The translations under genes were made by a program, and so were the position numbers. Below, piece by piece: positions 1 through 33,140 of a stretch of DNA of 64,000 nucleotides. Each line of letters begins with the position of its first letter. The first letter of the stretch is position 1. This DNA comes from Rhodobiaceae bacterium (GTDB taxonomy: Bacteria; Pseudomonadota; Alphaproteobacteria; RS24): NCBI GenBank assembly GCA_018660505.1, contig JABJKE010000027.1, positions 1 through 64,000 on the forward strand, given 5' to 3'. Under the pieces are notes generated by a model. It did not search any database and had not been told where the DNA came from. It was given only the letters and a program-made list of their open reading frames with translations.

Positions 1-402
1 ATCCCACTCATTGTCATAGAAGAGATTGAGACCGGCAATGACCTTGCCGTCATTCAATATCCAGCGCTGGCCGAGGCCGAGATTGAACGTGTCATCATTA
101 TCTGTCGCAATGATGCCGCCCTGAAAGAAGGTGGCGCGACCGGCTGATGGATTGTCATAAAGCGGCTGCACGGTGAAGATGGAATAGCGCGTATCTTCGC
201 CATCCAAATCGGTAATATCAATCTCGACATTGCGAAAGCGCTCTGACAAAGACTGCTCAATGCGGGCTGAAACATAATTCTCAGCCGATTGCGCCAGATT
301 GTTTTTAAAAAAGGCTTCAGCTTTTTGCGCGTCCGACGCGCCAGCCTGCCCGACGAAAATCAAAGTGCTAAAATTGGCCATAAGGGCGAAAAATAAACGC
401 AT
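1..402 (-). CDS. Inverse autotransporter (intimin/invasin-type), N-terminal part, cut by window edge
   Basis: The frame is open from an ATG at 402 to the first base of the window, giving 134 residues. It starts with a signal peptide (hydrophobic core LFFALMANFSTLIFVG, likely cleaved after QAGA). The first strands of an outer-membrane barrel follow: a FNLGLGQRW stretch near residues 108-116, then VIAGLNLFYDNEWD, which is the hallmark of the inverse-autotransporter beta domain (IAT_beta, intimin/invasin family). Known members insert an N-terminal barrel in the outer membrane and export C-terminal Ig-like or adhesive passenger domains. The passenger lies outside this window, so its nature is unknown. 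GGAG lies about 9 bases before the ATG. No neighbour explains its role. I am fairly confident of the family and cannot judge whether the gene is complete. Confidence 0.72.
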   Translation of the reverse strand, partial: MRLFFALMANFSTLIFVGQAGASDAQKAEAFFKNNLAQSAENYVSARIEQSLSERFRNVEIDITDLDGEDTRYSIFTVQPLYDNPSAGRATFFQGGIIATDNDDTFNLGLGQRWILNDGKVIAGLNLFYDNEWD

Positions 403-708
403 ACAAAACTCCAAGAAAAACTTTCGTTGTTGTATACGTTTCTTTTCTGATTTCAAGCTGAAAAAGAAGAACCGCAAAGAATTAGCGCTATAAAAATCCG
501 AGCCGAGATTACTATCACGCCTCTTCCGGATTCTCCCCCTGTGCCCTGTCCCAATGATGACGCTTGTCACAACTGTGTCACAGTGGATTGGCGTAAAATG
601 CCACCCCGCCATCAACCCCATGCTTGACCTCGAGTCCACACAAGTGCAGAATCATTGAGCAAATCGGCTGTTTTCTTGAGGTTGCCTAAGGTGTCTTGAG
701 GTGGGCTT
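403..708. other. Intergenic region between inverse autotransporter and tRNA
   Basis: These 306 bases hold no credible gene. The part next to the autotransporter (about 405-490) is AT-rich and probably contains its promoter, but I cannot fix -35 and -10 boxes. A 9-base direct repeat, TCTTGAGGT, occurs twice at 20-base spacing near 674-702. I see no terminator for the upstream tRNA. Confidence 0.4.
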
Positions 709-785
709 TGGTAGCGGAGGAGGGACTCGAACCCCCGACACGCGGATTATGATTCCGCTGCTCTAACCAGCTGAGCTACTCCGCT
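709..785 (-). tRNA. tRNA with CAT anticodon, probably elongator tRNA-Met
   Basis: The 77-base minus-strand sequence folds as a full cloverleaf. The acceptor stem is AGCGGAG with CTCCGCT. The D-arm contains AGCTCAGCTGGTTAGAGC. The anticodon stem is GCGGA/TCCGC with loop ATCATAA (anticodon CAT), and the T-arm reads GGGTTCGAGTCCC. Discriminator A and CCA are encoded (709-712). A CAT anticodon can be elongator Met, initiator Met or lysidine-modified Ile2. The paired first acceptor base argues against initiator, and overall similarity to alphaproteobacterial elongator Met tRNAs favours Met. Ile2 is not excluded. Confidence 0.93.
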
Positions 786-2429: not shown

Positions 2430-3590
2430 TTAAGAAATAGAGGCGCTTTTTATCCAACCCCCGCCCAGCACGCGGTCGCCATCTTTGGCGTAAAACACGC
2501 ACGCTTGGCCGGGCGAGACGCCCTCTTCGGGCCGCGACAGCACAACATCGGCTTGGCCGTTTTCACCCAAATGCAAATGCGCTGGCGCCGGATCTCCGGT
2601 CGAGCGGATACGGGCCAAAACTTCAATCGGCCCGCTGGCGGCATCGCCCAACCAATTAACCTCATCGAGATGCACACGCGCGCGCGCCAAAGCTTCGCGC
2701 GGGCCGACAATCACTTCGCGTTTATCCGCGTCAATCGCCACCACATAAATCGGGTCGCCCGTGGCAACGCCAAGCCCGCGTCTCTGGCCAACCGTATAAT
2801 GCAAAACCCCCTGATGGGTGCCCAAAAGCGTGCCGTCCATGTGGCGAATTTCGCCCGGCAGGCTGCAATCGGGGCGCAGGCGCTTTATCACGCTGGCGTA
2901 ATCGCCATTTGGCACGAAGCAAATATCTTGGCTATCGGGTTTATCCGCCACCATCAACCCCAAGGCGGCGGCATAGTCTCGAATTTCTTCTTTGCTCAAA
3001 TGCGCCAAGGGAAAACGCAAAAACGCCAGCTGCTCTTGCGTGGTCGAGAACAGAAAATACGATTGGTCGCGCGCCAAATCGAGAGGCCGATGCATTTCCC
3101 ATCCGCTATCGGTTTGGCGCGTGGCGATATAATGCCCCGTGACCATGGCCACCGCGCCCAGCTCGCGCGCCATGCCAAGCAGGTCGCGAAATTTCACCGT
3201 CTCATTGCATCGAATGCATGGAATGGGTGTGTGGCCTGCCAGATAACCGTCGACAAATTCATCCATCACGCTTTCTTTAAAACGCGATTCATAATCCAAA
3301 ACATAATGCGGCATATCCAGACAAGCGGCCACCGAGCGCGCATCGTGGATATCTTGTCCGGCGCAACACGCGCCTTTGCGGCGTATCGCTTCGCCGTGGT
3401 CGTATAATTGCAGCGTAATGCCCACCGCATCATAGCCCGCACGCTTGACCAGCGCGGCGGCCACAGAGCTATCGACACCGCCCGACATGGCAATGACAAC
3501 GCGCTGCTGGCTGCGTTGCTCAACCGTGCCGATATGAAGGTCGATATCGGGCAATGAGTCGAGCGCAAAAAGGGCATCTTGTGTCTTCAT
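2430..3590 (-). CDS. mnmA: tRNA-specific 2-thiouridylase MnmA
   Basis: MnmA adds sulfur to C2 of wobble uridine 34 in Lys, Glu and Gln tRNAs, using ATP and a relayed persulfide. The PP-loop SGGVDSS is at residues 36-42. The two catalytic cysteines are C128 (in PCIRCNE) and C224 (in [11 protein letters not shown]). The GHYIATR and DQSYFLF segments of the family are present. The frame stays open 37 codons further upstream, but those residues are basic/aromatic and unlike the family. I therefore start at the ATG at 3590, giving 386 residues, close to the usual 360-390. It lies 61 bases upstream of rpoN on the same strand. Confidence 0.95.
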
Positions 3591-3788
3591 AACAGCTTCA
3601 CTATAGCATGGATGGGCAACTCGCAAGCCTCGGCTTTGGGCGCAATAGCTGCAAAATTCAAGCCATAGCCACAAGAACACACAGCGTTCACGCGCGTTCA
3701 CGAAAAGTTGATTTGTCTGTGACCCCCCTTTCGCGCTTAGTGGAGCCTAGTTGTTTATCTGTCCGTAGCCGTAACGTAGGAGTTCAAA

Positions 3789-12305: not shown

Positions 12306-13470
12306 TTTGTGCCTCCATTTTAGCGGTTTCGAAGGCCCAATCGAGCCACGGTGTTAAAGCGGCGAGGTCGGATGCTTCGACCGTCGCGCCGGCCCAAATG
12401 CGCAAGCCCGCCGGGGCATCGCGATAAGCGCCAATGTCGTAAGCCACGGCTTCTGCATCCAGAAGGCTGGCGATTTTTTTGGCCAAAGCGCTTTGCGCGT
12501 CTGGCGCCATGGCCTGCACTTCGGCATCGACGATTTGCAAACAGACCGAGGTGGTCGACTGATTGGCTTCATCTTGGCACAGGTTGGCGACCCAATCGGT
12601 TTTGGCCACCCAATCATTGAGGGCTTTATTATTGTCGGCGACGCGACCCAAAAGGCCGGCCAAGCCGCCGGTGCTTTCGGCCCATTTTAGGGTATCGAGA
12701 TAATCTTCCACGGCCAGCATGGAGGGCGTGTTGATGGTCTCGCCTTTAAAAATACCTTCGATGAGCTTGCCGCCCTTGGTGAGGCGGAACACTTTCGGCA
12801 GCGGCCAAGCGGGCGTATAGCTCTCGAGGCGAGCGACCGCGCGCGGGCTCAAAATCAACATGCCATGGGCGGCTTCTCCGCCCAGCACTTTTTGCCAGCT
12901 ATAGGTGGTGACGTCTAATTTATCCCACGCCAAATCCATGGCGAAAGCGGCGGATGTGGCGTCGCATAGGGTCAGGCCTTCGCGGGTCTCGCTAATCCAG
13001 TCGCCATTGGGCACGCGCACGCCCGCTGTGGTGCCATTCCAAGTGAAGGCGACATCGCGGGAGAAATCGACACCGCTTAAATCTGGCAGCTGACCGTAGT
13101 CGGCTTCCATGACGCGCACATCGTCTAGTTTTAATTGTTTCACCACATCGGTGACCCAGCCGGAGCCGAAGCTTTCCCACGCCAGAATATCGAGGCCGCG
13201 TTGGCCGAGCAGGCTCCACATGGCCATTTCATAGGCGCCTGTATCGGAGGCCGGCACAATGCCGATGTGATAGTCATCTGGCACGCCCAAAACCGCGCGA
13301 GTGCGATCGATGGCTTCGGCCAGTTTCGCCTTGCCCGGTTTCGAGCGATGCGAACGGCCTAAGACGGCACCTTCTAGAGCTTGTAAGGAGAACCCGGGGC
13401 GCTTGGCGCAGGGGCCGGAAGAAAAATTGGGGTTGGCCGGACGCACGTCTGGCTTGGTCAAGTCTGTCAT
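12298..13470 (-). CDS. serC: Phosphoserine aminotransferase
   Basis: SerC converts 3-phosphohydroxypyruvate and glutamate to phosphoserine using PLP. The 390-residue protein is of the alphaproteobacterial type. It has [12 protein letters not shown] near the N-terminus, [13 protein letters not shown] mid-protein, and the PLP lysine K194 in [13 protein letters not shown]. The ATG at 13470 follows AAAGGG by 7 bases. It is the first gene of serC-serA(-purA). Its 5' region is unusual: a 6-bp hairpin 24 bases before the ATG, and two terminator-like structures further upstream on the same strand. Confidence 0.95.
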
Positions 13471-13493
13471 TTGGTAACCCTTTCAGATTATTG

Positions 13494-13511
13494 CCTCTCG
13501 TTGGGGAGAGG
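13494..13511 (-). promoter_or_regulatory. Hairpin in the serC 5' leader
   Basis: CCTCTC and GAGAGG pair perfectly around a 6-base loop, ending 24 bases before the serC ATG. A conserved alphaproteobacterial leader element called the serC motif has been described at this position. I cannot recall its consensus well enough to claim identity, so this is a positional guess. Confidence 0.4.
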
Positions 13512-13736
13512 TGTCCCACTTATCGATATAGGGGGGATGGATAGAGTCGTCAAGCAAGCTGGTGAGGGGGGGACAGCAAATGTCTGAGGGTCGATTGGGT
13601 TTGGTGTTGGGGGCGCAACAGAGCGAGGCCAGCGCGCGTGCTTCTTAACGGCAGTTTGCGCCTTTCTCACCTAGGGTCTATTCGGCGTGCCTCCGTAGAA
13701 ACCTCCTTATTCAACCCTTACCCCCAACCGAAACGC
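13512..13736. other. Non-coding stretch between serC leader hairpin and predicted small RNA
   Basis: No credible gene is present; short frames here have no family-like composition. It contains a CCTAGG at about 13671 and a GGAGG-rich stretch on the minus strand (about 13685-13710) with no usable start codon after it. If serC has its own promoter it should lie in this stretch, but I cannot identify boxes. Confidence 0.4.
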
Positions 13737-13767
13737 AAAAACCGACACCCGCTTTCGCAGGTGTCGG
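13737..13767 (-). terminator. Intrinsic terminator upstream of serC
   Basis: Minus strand: the 8-bp arm CCGACACC/GGTGTCGG continues through a U-G wobble and GC/GC to a GAAA tetraloop, 11 pairs in all, followed by TTTTT (13741-13737). Confidence 0.7.
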
Positions 13768-13870
13768 GGTGCACTAAGCCAGTCCAAAGAATGGCTACGA
13801 CGTATTCAGTCGAAACCTTATTCCGCCGTCACCCCAACAAAGCGGAGTGAACGGATTTTTTCAGCAATTC
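13737..13870 (-). ncRNA. Predicted small RNA or leader segment A, ending in an intrinsic terminator
   Basis: Read on the minus strand, this stretch gives in order a 10-bp stem with one bulge (13826-13854), a short CGAC/GTCG hairpin, an AGCCA/TGGCT hairpin (13777-13796), and an 11-bp GAAA-loop terminator (13742-13767) followed by T5. The stem at 13826-13854 and the terminator each contain one pair that is a C-A mismatch on the plus strand and a G-U wobble on the minus strand, so minus is the sensible strand. No protein gene explains a minus-strand terminator here. It could be a small RNA, an attenuator of serC, or a dispersed palindromic repeat; the GGGGTGACGG and GCGAAAGCGGG parts resemble repeats common in alphaproteobacteria. 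Confidence 0.4.
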
Positions 13871-13872
13871 AT

Positions 13873-13903
13873 AAAAAAAGGCTTAACGCAAAAGCGCTAA
13901 GCC
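13873..13903 (-). terminator. Intrinsic terminator with T7
   Basis: Minus strand: GGCTTA-G-CGC, loop TTTT, GCG-T-TAAGCC makes 10 pairs including one G-U, followed by seven T residues (13879-13873). On the plus strand the wobble becomes an A-C mismatch and no T-run follows. Confidence 0.8.
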
Positions 13904-13990
13904 ACATACGCAATACAAATTGCGGCTTTGGAACAGGGGCTAGTGACCCCAGCAACGCACCATTCGCGCGTTGATGAATTGAGGCTAGCA
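13873..13990 (-). ncRNA. Predicted small RNA or leader segment B, ending in an intrinsic terminator
   Basis: Minus-strand reading gives an AACGCGC/GTGCGTT hairpin (13954-13972, one G-U), a GGGG/CCCC hairpin (13936-13950), a perfect CGCAAT/ATTGCG hairpin with 4-base loop (13909-13924), and a strong terminator with T7 (13873-13903). The upstream end is unknown; the strand is open up to the methyltransferase promoter. Only plus-strand restriction-modification genes lie upstream for 1.5 kb, so the terminator must serve a transcript that begins in this gap. No known RNA family was recognised; tmRNA and SRP signatures are absent. Confidence 0.4.
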
Positions 13991-14049
13991 GAATTTTTTG
14001 GGGGACGGAAGGGGGTGGGTTAAAGCAAACACACCTGATTTTTTACAAC

Positions 14050-14072: not shown

Positions 14073-14128
14073 CGAATTCCGGCACGTCTGGATACACCTA
14101 CTAATAAAATCAAACAAAAGGGGTGAAA

Positions 14129-14977
14129 ATGGCGCGTGTTAGAAAACAAAAAAAAGAGCCAATTGTTACCTTTATTGATTTATTCGCAGGTATTGGCGGG
14201 TTTCATATTGCCCTATCTAATCTTGGTGCAAAATGCGTCATGGCTTGCGAAATCGATGAAGCCGCGAGAACCATTTACAAGGTTAATCATAACCCAGAAA
14301 TGATGCATGAAGACATCACAACGCTTGAGCTAGATGCCATTCCTGACCACGACTTATTATGTGCTGGCTTTCCTTGCCAACCATTTAGTCAGGGCGGCTT
14401 TAAGCGCGGTTTCCACGACACTCGTGGAACTCTGTTTTTTAATATTCATCAAATTCTCAAACATAAAAAACCAAAAGCGTTTTTCTTAGAGAACGTGCGC
14501 CACATTAAAAACCATGATGGTGGCAACACGATGAAGATAATCGAGAGTTGCATTACCGAGCTTGGTTATTCCTTTCATAGTTTCATTGTGCGGGCTAGTG
14601 ACCATGGGTTACCCCAGCATCGCCCTCGTTGTTTTATGGTGGGCTTCGCCAACGGACAAGAATTTTCCCCACCTAAGAGACGTGAGCTAGAAAAAACAAT
14701 GAGCGATATTTTGGGCGGCGAGTGCCCGCGAGATATCGGCTTTACCCTCCGTGTCGGTGGACGTCATTCGCCTATTACTGGGCGCCATAATTGGGATGGT
14801 TATATCGTAGACGGTGAGGCTAGGCGATTATCGATAAAGGAAGCTGCCGCCATGCAAGGGTTTCCCGAGGATTTTGTGTTTCCTAACTCACAAAAGGAAG
14901 CCATGAAACAATTGGGGAATTCTGTCGCCATACCTGCCATTCAAGATTACGCTAAAGAAATACTGGCATCGCTATGA
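14129..14977 (+). CDS. DNA (cytosine-5) methyltransferase of a type II restriction-modification system
   Basis: The 282-residue enzyme has the ordered C5-methyltransferase motifs: I (FAGIGG, 19-24), IV (PCQ, 82-84, nucleophile C83), VI (ENV, 121-123), VIII (QHRPR, 163-167) and X (GNSV, 263-266). A variable target-recognition region lies at about 183-230 and includes GFTLRVGGRHS and GRHNWDGYIVDGE. The ATG at 14129 follows AAGGGG; a GTG two codons earlier is less likely. The base composition is visibly AT-richer than its neighbours, which suggests transfer. The stop overlaps the next gene as ATGA, so it is coupled to the predicted endonuclease. The recognition sequence cannot be read from the protein. 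Confidence 0.93.
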   Translation: MARVRKQKKEPIVTFIDLFAGIGGFHIALSNLGAKCVMACEIDEAARTIYKVNHNPEMMHEDITTLELDAIPDHDLLCAGFPCQPFSQGGFKRGFHDTRGTLFFNIHQILKHKKPKAFFLENVRHIKNHDGGNTMKIIESCITELGYSFHSFIVRASDHGLPQHRPRCFMVGFANGQEFSPPKRRELEKTMSDILGGECPRDIGFTLRVGGRHSPITGRHNWDGYIVDGEARRLSIKEAAAMQGFPEDFVFPNSQKEAMKQLGNSVAIPAIQDYAKEILASL

Positions 14978-15573
14978 CCGATTTGAGAGAAACTGGACTT
15001 CTTCCGTCGAAGACATCCGATACTTCAAGAATTTTCGAGCGGCAATACAGCGATATTTTAACGCGGCAAATGTCTACTCCAAGCACATTCTTACAAAAGG
15101 CTTGGGGCGAATATATGCGGGGCACCTCTGCGCTTAATGGAAGCGTATTTGAAACTCTTGTTTCTTGTTTGCTTTTTCGAAATCAAATCACCCCCATTTT
15201 CGTACAAACTCAAATTACATTTATTCCCAACATTGTTTTCGACTTAGTACTGTATACCAAGGAGTGTGGACCAATCATTCTTTCCGTAAAAACGAGCTTG
15301 CGCGAACGTTATAAGCAAGCTGATTTAGAAGGGATGATGCTGCGGCAAGTCCACCGAAAGGCACTGAGTTATTTGATAACTGCAAATGAAAAAGAAGCGA
15401 TTTCAGTAAACAACAAAATTAAGGATGGCTCGGTTCTAGGCATCGACCAAGTAGTCTATGCATTCGGAAAAGACATGGATATTTTGATCGATTCCTTAAC
15501 CAACTTTGAATATAAAATTCCGCCAAAGGTTGACGTGTTGACCGCGAAACGCGTTGTCACAAATTCTCAATAG
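14974..15573 (+). CDS. Putative type II restriction endonuclease, PD-(D/E)XK-like
   Basis: This is a 199-residue protein whose ATG overlaps the methyltransferase stop. I do not recognise a named enzyme. A nuclease core is plausible: E60 in SVFETLV, D90 in PNIVFDLVLY, then LSVKTSLRERYKQADLE (103-119) with K106, R110, R112 and E119. The spacing of K, R/K, R, Q and E in the last segment resembles, as I recall it, the EcoRII/PspGI-type variant in which the acidic residue is displaced. Size, low GC, gene order and overlap with a C5-methyltransferase all fit a restriction partner. It ends 6 bases from the convergent GNAT stop. The function is inferred from context and this motif. Confidence 0.72.
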   Translation: MTDLRETGLLPSKTSDTSRIFERQYSDILTRQMSTPSTFLQKAWGEYMRGTSALNGSVFETLVSCLLFRNQITPIFVQTQITFIPNIVFDLVLYTKECGPIILSVKTSLRERYKQADLEGMMLRQVHRKALSYLITANEKEAISVNNKIKDGSVLGIDQVVYAFGKDMDILIDSLTNFEYKIPPKVDVLTAKRVVTNSQ

Positions 15574-32956: not shown

Positions 32957-32999
32957 TGGCAAATCTCTAGGCGGAACCGCCACAACCGGTTTATGCGTA

Positions 33000-33140
33000 A
33001 TCCCCGGAGACCTACATAAGTAGGTGGGCACCGTATGAAACAGGCCACGGCCCGCCTCAGGGACAGCTCCCTAAAGGATCGTAAGGTCCCGAGCGTTATA
33101 AGCATGTATCGCGTCGGGCAGTTCCATCTCCACCCTTACA
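33000..33140 (-). ncRNA. ssrS: 6S RNA
   Basis: 6S RNA mimics an open promoter and sequesters the housekeeping RNA polymerase. The minus strand between zapA and 5-FCL shows the features of the alphaproteobacterial form. GGAGA near 33127-33132 can pair with TCTCC near 33006-33010 to close the long stem, with a large central bubble (around CTTATAACGCTCGGGACC and GTTTCATACGG). The downstream part contains GTGCCCACCTACTTATGTAGG, the hairpin CCTAC/GTAGG being clear. The ends are approximate by about 15 bases. Order zapA-ssrS-5-FCL is conserved. Confidence 0.85.

Follow-up and report, generated by a model that had tools for sequence, protein, structure and literature searches.

The window analysed here is a stretch of 64,000 nt from a contig of a Rhodobiaceae bacterium, and the locus of interest lies on its minus strand beside serC. 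On the plus strand, nt 14123–15573 carry a C5-cytosine DNA methylase (PF00145, 1e-77) and then a protein with a match to the BsaWI restriction endonuclease that remains below the cut-off (23.5 bits, cut-off 26.2); the two are likely to form a type II restriction-modification pair. An Rfam scan of the whole window returned only the serC leader, tRNA and 6S RNA above cut-off, the last at nt 32970–33127 of the minus strand (58.6 bits). Weak matches in the window to isrK, BSR0602, drz-agam-1 and snR98 were judged to be due to chance. ARAGORN found no tmRNA at the locus, and no DNA match of the window copy was found in phage and plasmid records. The hairpins beside serC are parts of one minus-strand RNA of ~230 nt, with predicted ends at about nt 13973 and 13737, and the features of the region are as follows.

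13985–14011 (minus): promoter-like element, CTTCCG (14011–14006) and TGCTAG (13990–13985), directly upstream of the 5' hairpin
13953–13973 (minus): 5' hairpin CAACGCG-CGAAUGG-UGCGUUG, from the fold; present in nearly all copies, with varying sequence
13926–13950 (minus): S1, GGGGUCACUAGCCCCUGUUCCAAAG, the 5' partner strand, from the S1–S2 complementarity in stand-alone copies
13873–13903 (minus): internal hairpin with a U7 tail, between S1 and S2, from a pattern scan; the first terminator of the preliminary description
13830–13849 (minus): core hairpin A, CACUCC/GGGGUG, from the consensus structures of alignments A1 and A3
13797–13829 (minus): core hairpin B, ACGGCG/CGUCGU, with an AAUA/AAUA internal loop and several pairs showing double changes
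13766–13795 (minus): S2, the partner of S1 and, in gene-linked relatives, also the complement of the ribosome-binding site that follows
13755–13838 (minus): RF02221-like stretch with all 87 model positions (22.0 bits, cut-off 53, E 0.21–0.46)
13737–13767 (minus): 3' hairpin with a GAAA loop and a U5 tail, from a pattern scan; hairpin conserved in A3
13603–13729 (minus): second domain, in which GGUUGGGGG/CCCCCAAC form the closing stem and a further AAUA/AAUA hairpin is found, from folds and relatives
13470–13521 (minus): serC leader RF00517, a separate known element (67.8 bits)

When nt 13730–14000 of the minus strand were folded and compared with dinucleotide shuffles, the z-score was -7.25 and none of 200 shuffles was as good, while the plus strand gave a weaker value (z -5.1). 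The pattern scan recovered both of the minus-strand terminator hairpins described previously, at nt 13873–13903 and 13737–13767: 10 pairs followed by TTTTTTT at nt 13903–13880, and 11 pairs followed by TTTTT at nt 13767–13742. Inspection of the sequence confirmed that each of the two contains one pair that is G-U on the minus strand and a C-A mismatch on the plus strand. Eight terminator-like sites were seen in 3.5 kb where 5.1 ± 2.4 were expected, so that such sites alone are within chance, and it is the fold and the comparative data that exceed it. The preliminary description is upheld in that a structured RNA lies on the minus strand, lacks a neighbouring gene of its own and keeps its pairs through compensatory change; its proposal of two tandem small RNAs is not, since a single conserved core spans both hairpins, and the conserved RNA extends beyond them in either direction.

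The 5' hairpin is the probable start of the RNA and the 3' hairpin its probable terminator, and a U tail after the latter is typical of stand-alone copies; the internal hairpin is U-tailed in strong family copies. The GGGG of S1 is able to pair either with a local CCCC or with the CCCC of S2. The promoter-like element was missed by a generic sigma-70 scan. It keeps a near-fixed spacing to the 5' hairpin in the family alignment (judged by eye), and 26 of 50 copies carry a -10-like pattern, which was seen in 12 of 120 background windows. The second domain is read as a degenerate second 3' half, with a score of 9.0 bits for model R2 (nt 13718–13673).

Relatives of the RNA are numerous and scattered. 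A DNA search found the window stretch in 15 of 41 genomes, with four copies in this genome and many of the matches near contig ends. Covariance model R1 detected six copies in this genome, a minimum count, and matched 21 of the 28 genomes in the family to which strain IMCC14465 belongs (in the set compared, the order comprises the same 28 genomes), and the 3'-domain model R2 matched 22 of the 28, several of the compared genomes being incomplete MAGs. The named organisms matched in the scan are strain IMCC14465, a member of the marine PS1 clade, and MAGs labelled Rhodobiaceae. In a wider set, R2 matched only 24 of 385 alphaproteobacterial genomes, and the copies found there precede ORFs that were assigned by eye as pilin-like, lipoprotein-like, XRE-like and methylase-like. 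Most copies are single and stand beside housekeeping genes, the neighbours (named by eye) including prs, dus, glnA, ychF, tig, pyrG and others. The earlier suspicion that part of the sequence (segment A) might be a dispersed palindromic repeat is thus correct in that the element is multicopy and dispersed, and incorrect in its nature, as this is a structurally constrained RNA gene and not a palindromic spacer repeat.

Two kinds of copy can be distinguished. In many of them a small ORF begins roughly 40–90 nt past the core; described by eye, these linked ORFs specify XRE-like regulators (110–114 aa), membrane-like proteins, a 'TPADWTEEEE' family and others. One XRE-like ORF matched PF01381 at 3e-6, while the others tested were below cut-off, and a search of IMG/VR with the alignment of XRE-like regulators (A2) returned one partial match of 21 residues. 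Directly upstream of the RNA-XRE modules at L028 (nt 2848–3592), and also at L023, L031 and L012, there is a Gp49-type toxin and HI1420-type antidote pair. The stand-alone copies, which include the one in the window and those at prs and dus, lack such an ORF; in them the 3' hairpin is followed by a U run, and there is a second domain with structure of its own.

Base-pair conservation in a minus-strand transcript, as had been predicted from the G-U pairs, is borne out by compensatory changes that keep pairs among the copies. RNAalifold on A1 gave 30 pairs, of which 11 show double changes, and the two AAUA blocks of core hairpin B are invariant in 41 copies. The sequences of S1 and S2 are nearly free across copies yet mutually complementary. 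In 16 stand-alone copies the mean energy of the S1–S2 duplex is -23.8 kcal/mol for own pairs against -17.1 for mismatched ones, and in 13 gene-linked copies -26.2 against -17.8, a difference reached in 0 of 20,000 permutations in either set, in tests that here, as for S2–S3 below, remove relatedness and shared composition only in part. At the serC site, CACUA/UAGUG of this genome is replaced in a relative (G001) by UAGUA/UACUA, a compensatory difference. These data bear on the idea that the stand-alone copies are defunct remnants of RNA-gene modules that gene conversion or a mobile element has dispersed, a reading to which the multicopy and dispersed distribution, the frequent position near contig ends and the occurrence of truncated and degenerate copies would lend themselves. 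It is nevertheless considered unlikely, as S1–S2 pairing is as strict in stand-alone as in gene-linked copies, compensatory differences separate this genome from G001 at the serC site, and the promoter-like element and the U-tailed 3' hairpin have been retained. As the window copy has the promoter-like element, S1, S2 and both hairpins, and as pairing is kept in its stand-alone relatives, it is probably transcribed and functional. It has no linked gene and is taken to be an orphan member that probably acts in trans.

The 3' part of the window RNA resembles sRNA-Xcc1 (RF02221), an 88 nt RNA that was mapped by RACE and shown by Northern blot in Xanthomonas (PMC2996969). Positions 1–87 of the 87 in the Rfam model are matched in order and with a few non-standard pairs, and the two share the order of the 3' domain: a GGGG..CCCC closing helix, the AAUA/GAAUA hairpin, the hairpin of S2 and a C-rich stem on the 3' side. 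The 87 nt model differs in leaving out the 5' half, to which S1 and the U-tailed hairpin belong. A covariance search of Rfam and related genomes, proposed in the preliminary description as a check, did find relatives, although the window copy itself scores well below the gathering cut-off of RF02221 (22 against 53 bits). Within the window's own genus a copy (L034) scores 42.7 bits, and other, distant relatives score 56.2 (L112, above the cut-off), 51.7 (L119) and 47.2 bits (L113). Loci matched by R2 include some that Rfam scores at 41–56 bits as RF02221; conversely, R2 recovers seven of the 30 RF02221 loci, weakly but in the correct position. Of 398 proteobacterial genomes, 39 contained RF02221 at a score above its cut-off. 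The 7 copies of sRNA-Xcc1 reported for a genome of Xylella (PMC12189769) and the 15 for one of A. salmonicida (PMC8780938) are in keeping with a dispersed family, and in the integron cassettes of Xanthomonas it precedes symE (PMC12444791). At its published EDL933 coordinate (PMC5331693) there was no RF02221 match in the assembly examined. Since 2010 the literature has treated sRNA-Xcc1 as a trans-acting or virulence-associated sRNA; the literature searched gave no known mechanism for it, and none of the antisense-leader kind, nor a paper joining it to C4 or IsrK, the search excluding a 2011 RNA Biology paper that might describe the upstream half.

An upstream half is present at RF02221 loci. 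About 35–125 nt upstream of the Rfam match there is an S1 strand complementary to S2 inside the match, and at 28 loci own pairs averaged -35.7 against -25.5 for mismatched pairs (0 of 50,000 permutations); control windows farther upstream gave p values of 0.22 and 0.37. A U-tailed hairpin lies between S1 and S2, with a run of at least 5 T in 23 of 30 loci compared with 50 of 473 background windows, and is the counterpart of the window hairpin at nt 13873–13903. S2 is also complementary to a third strand, S3, defined as the region (the ribosome-binding site) that directly precedes the start codon of the next gene. At 18 RF02221 loci S2–S3 pairing was -20.0 for own and -14.4 for mismatched strands (0 of 20,000 permutations), and the 31 gene-linked copies from the window's family gave p 4e-5; the signal was weak among the scattered alphaproteobacterial copies (p 0.027), and z-scores against shuffled S3 were modest (means -1.0 and -1.8). 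The genes downstream of RF02221 loci are often phage antirepressor genes and include those for Bro-N, KilA-N, P22_AR_N and Rha proteins. The gene order is q, RNA, ant in phage Aaphi23 and RNA, ant in phage Rac-SA53, and in both S2 pairs across the Shine-Dalgarno region of ant. At L129 a tmRNA gene (nt 379–742, plus strand) is found about 1 kb from an RF02221 RNA and a Bro-N gene, and further RF02221 loci have tRNA genes in their vicinity, which is what integrated elements would be expected to show.

Two phage systems offer a comparison. C4 of P1/P7 is an antisense RNA directed against the ribosome-binding site of ant (PMC12197685), and C4 (RF01695) and c4-2 (RF02944) resemble the present family in that one strand is antisense to the ribosome-binding site of the antirepressor gene located directly downstream, but differ in fold and length. 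The window contained no RF01695 match at E values as high as 10, and 20 RF02221 loci contained none at E values as high as 0.5; c4-2 had no match in the window or over RF02221 loci. A C4-like strand, complementary to the ribosome-binding site of the next gene, is present in the gene-linked relatives and at RF02221 loci but not in the window copy, which has no linked gene. IsrK (RF01394) of the Salmonella prophage Gifsy-1 is a short leader RNA acting on its own read-through mRNA (PMC4825925). It has a Q-like gene on one side and an antirepressor gene on the other, as has the RNA of Aaphi23 (q-RNA-ant), and a further point of likeness would be a short RNA, ended by a terminator of its own, alongside a read-through mRNA on which it acts (PMC4825925); the window scores only 19.8 bits with its model (cut-off 50), mostly from a GC stem. 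IsrK activates, whereas C4 represses.

Taken together, the comparisons make it fairly likely that the window RNA is one member of a widespread family of C4/IsrK-like antisense leader RNAs, that RF02221 is the 3' half of their plan, and that the window copy is a stand-alone, trans-acting form. The full plan would run from a promoter through the 5' hairpin, S1, the U-tailed hairpin, the core hairpins with AAUA/AAUA, S2, the 3' hairpin and S3 to the start codon. With S2 paired to S1, S3 would be free, and with S2 paired to S3 the ribosome-binding site would be covered, so that S2 may control translation in cis or in trans, with an effect of either sign. Short RNAs ended or cut at the U-tailed hairpins may act in trans, and the window copy, with no linked gene, would be a stand-alone RNA of this kind. 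On a broader view, for which the chances are put at about even, sRNA-Xcc1 would be the 3' half of phylum-wide three-strand (S1–S2–S3) antisense leaders of phage antirepressor genes, which have spread to many alphaproteobacterial accessory genes and given rise to stand-alone, phage-independent, trans-acting RNAs in small marine genomes. The present data extend the structure of sRNA-Xcc1 and offer a mechanism for it that can be tested, in which a leader strand would be able to cover the ribosome-binding site of the gene that follows; they link it to phage immunity (C4, IsrK) and predict a regulatory partner for each gene-linked copy. They also show an RNA regulator of phage type increasing in number within small marine genomes.

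A different function could be imagined for the same architecture, namely a riboswitch or protein-binding leader in which the AAUA/AAUA core binds a ligand or protein, the exchange between S1–S2 and S2–S3 serves as expression platform, and the stand-alone copies are decoys. The invariance of the core residues, the exchangeable pairings and the placement of one RNA ahead of many different genes would all suit such a leader. It is given a rather low probability, because the controlled genes share no common pathway, the stand-alone copies have no gene to control in cis, and the variable S2 tracks its own S3 at each locus, as an antisense strand does and a ligand platform need not. An antisense leader family remains the preferred reading.

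Copies lie upstream of serC in seven genomes of two genera, and a near-complete relative carries two RNA copies in tandem ahead of this gene (G010:C2:170138-170889; L002, L016). A comparison of the neighbours of the copies shows that linkage to serC is not constant. The tree of copies has too few sites for firm branching; on it the serC-side copies of the two genera lie apart, which leaves a lasting tie to serC unsupported. Pairing of the window S2 was -13.7 with the serC ribosome-binding site and -13.9 to -17.3 with XRE ribosome-binding sites, no better than background (mean -16.2 for 42 sites), so that no trans target is claimed. An attenuator or long leader of serC, including the double attenuator envisaged in the preliminary description, is therefore very improbable despite the recurrence of the RNA at this gene, as the majority of copies lie away from serC and adjoin many genes, S2 shows no preference for the serC ribosome-binding site, the serC-side copies of the two genera are apart on the weak tree, and serC has its own leader (RF00517, nt 13521–13470), upstream of which the window RNA lies. 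At another locus (L095, nt 1640–1720) the 3' hairpin is tandemly repeated, CACCTGCTTTT..GCAGGTGCCGGAAGCAGTTGAGA, as if the element were capable of local expansion.
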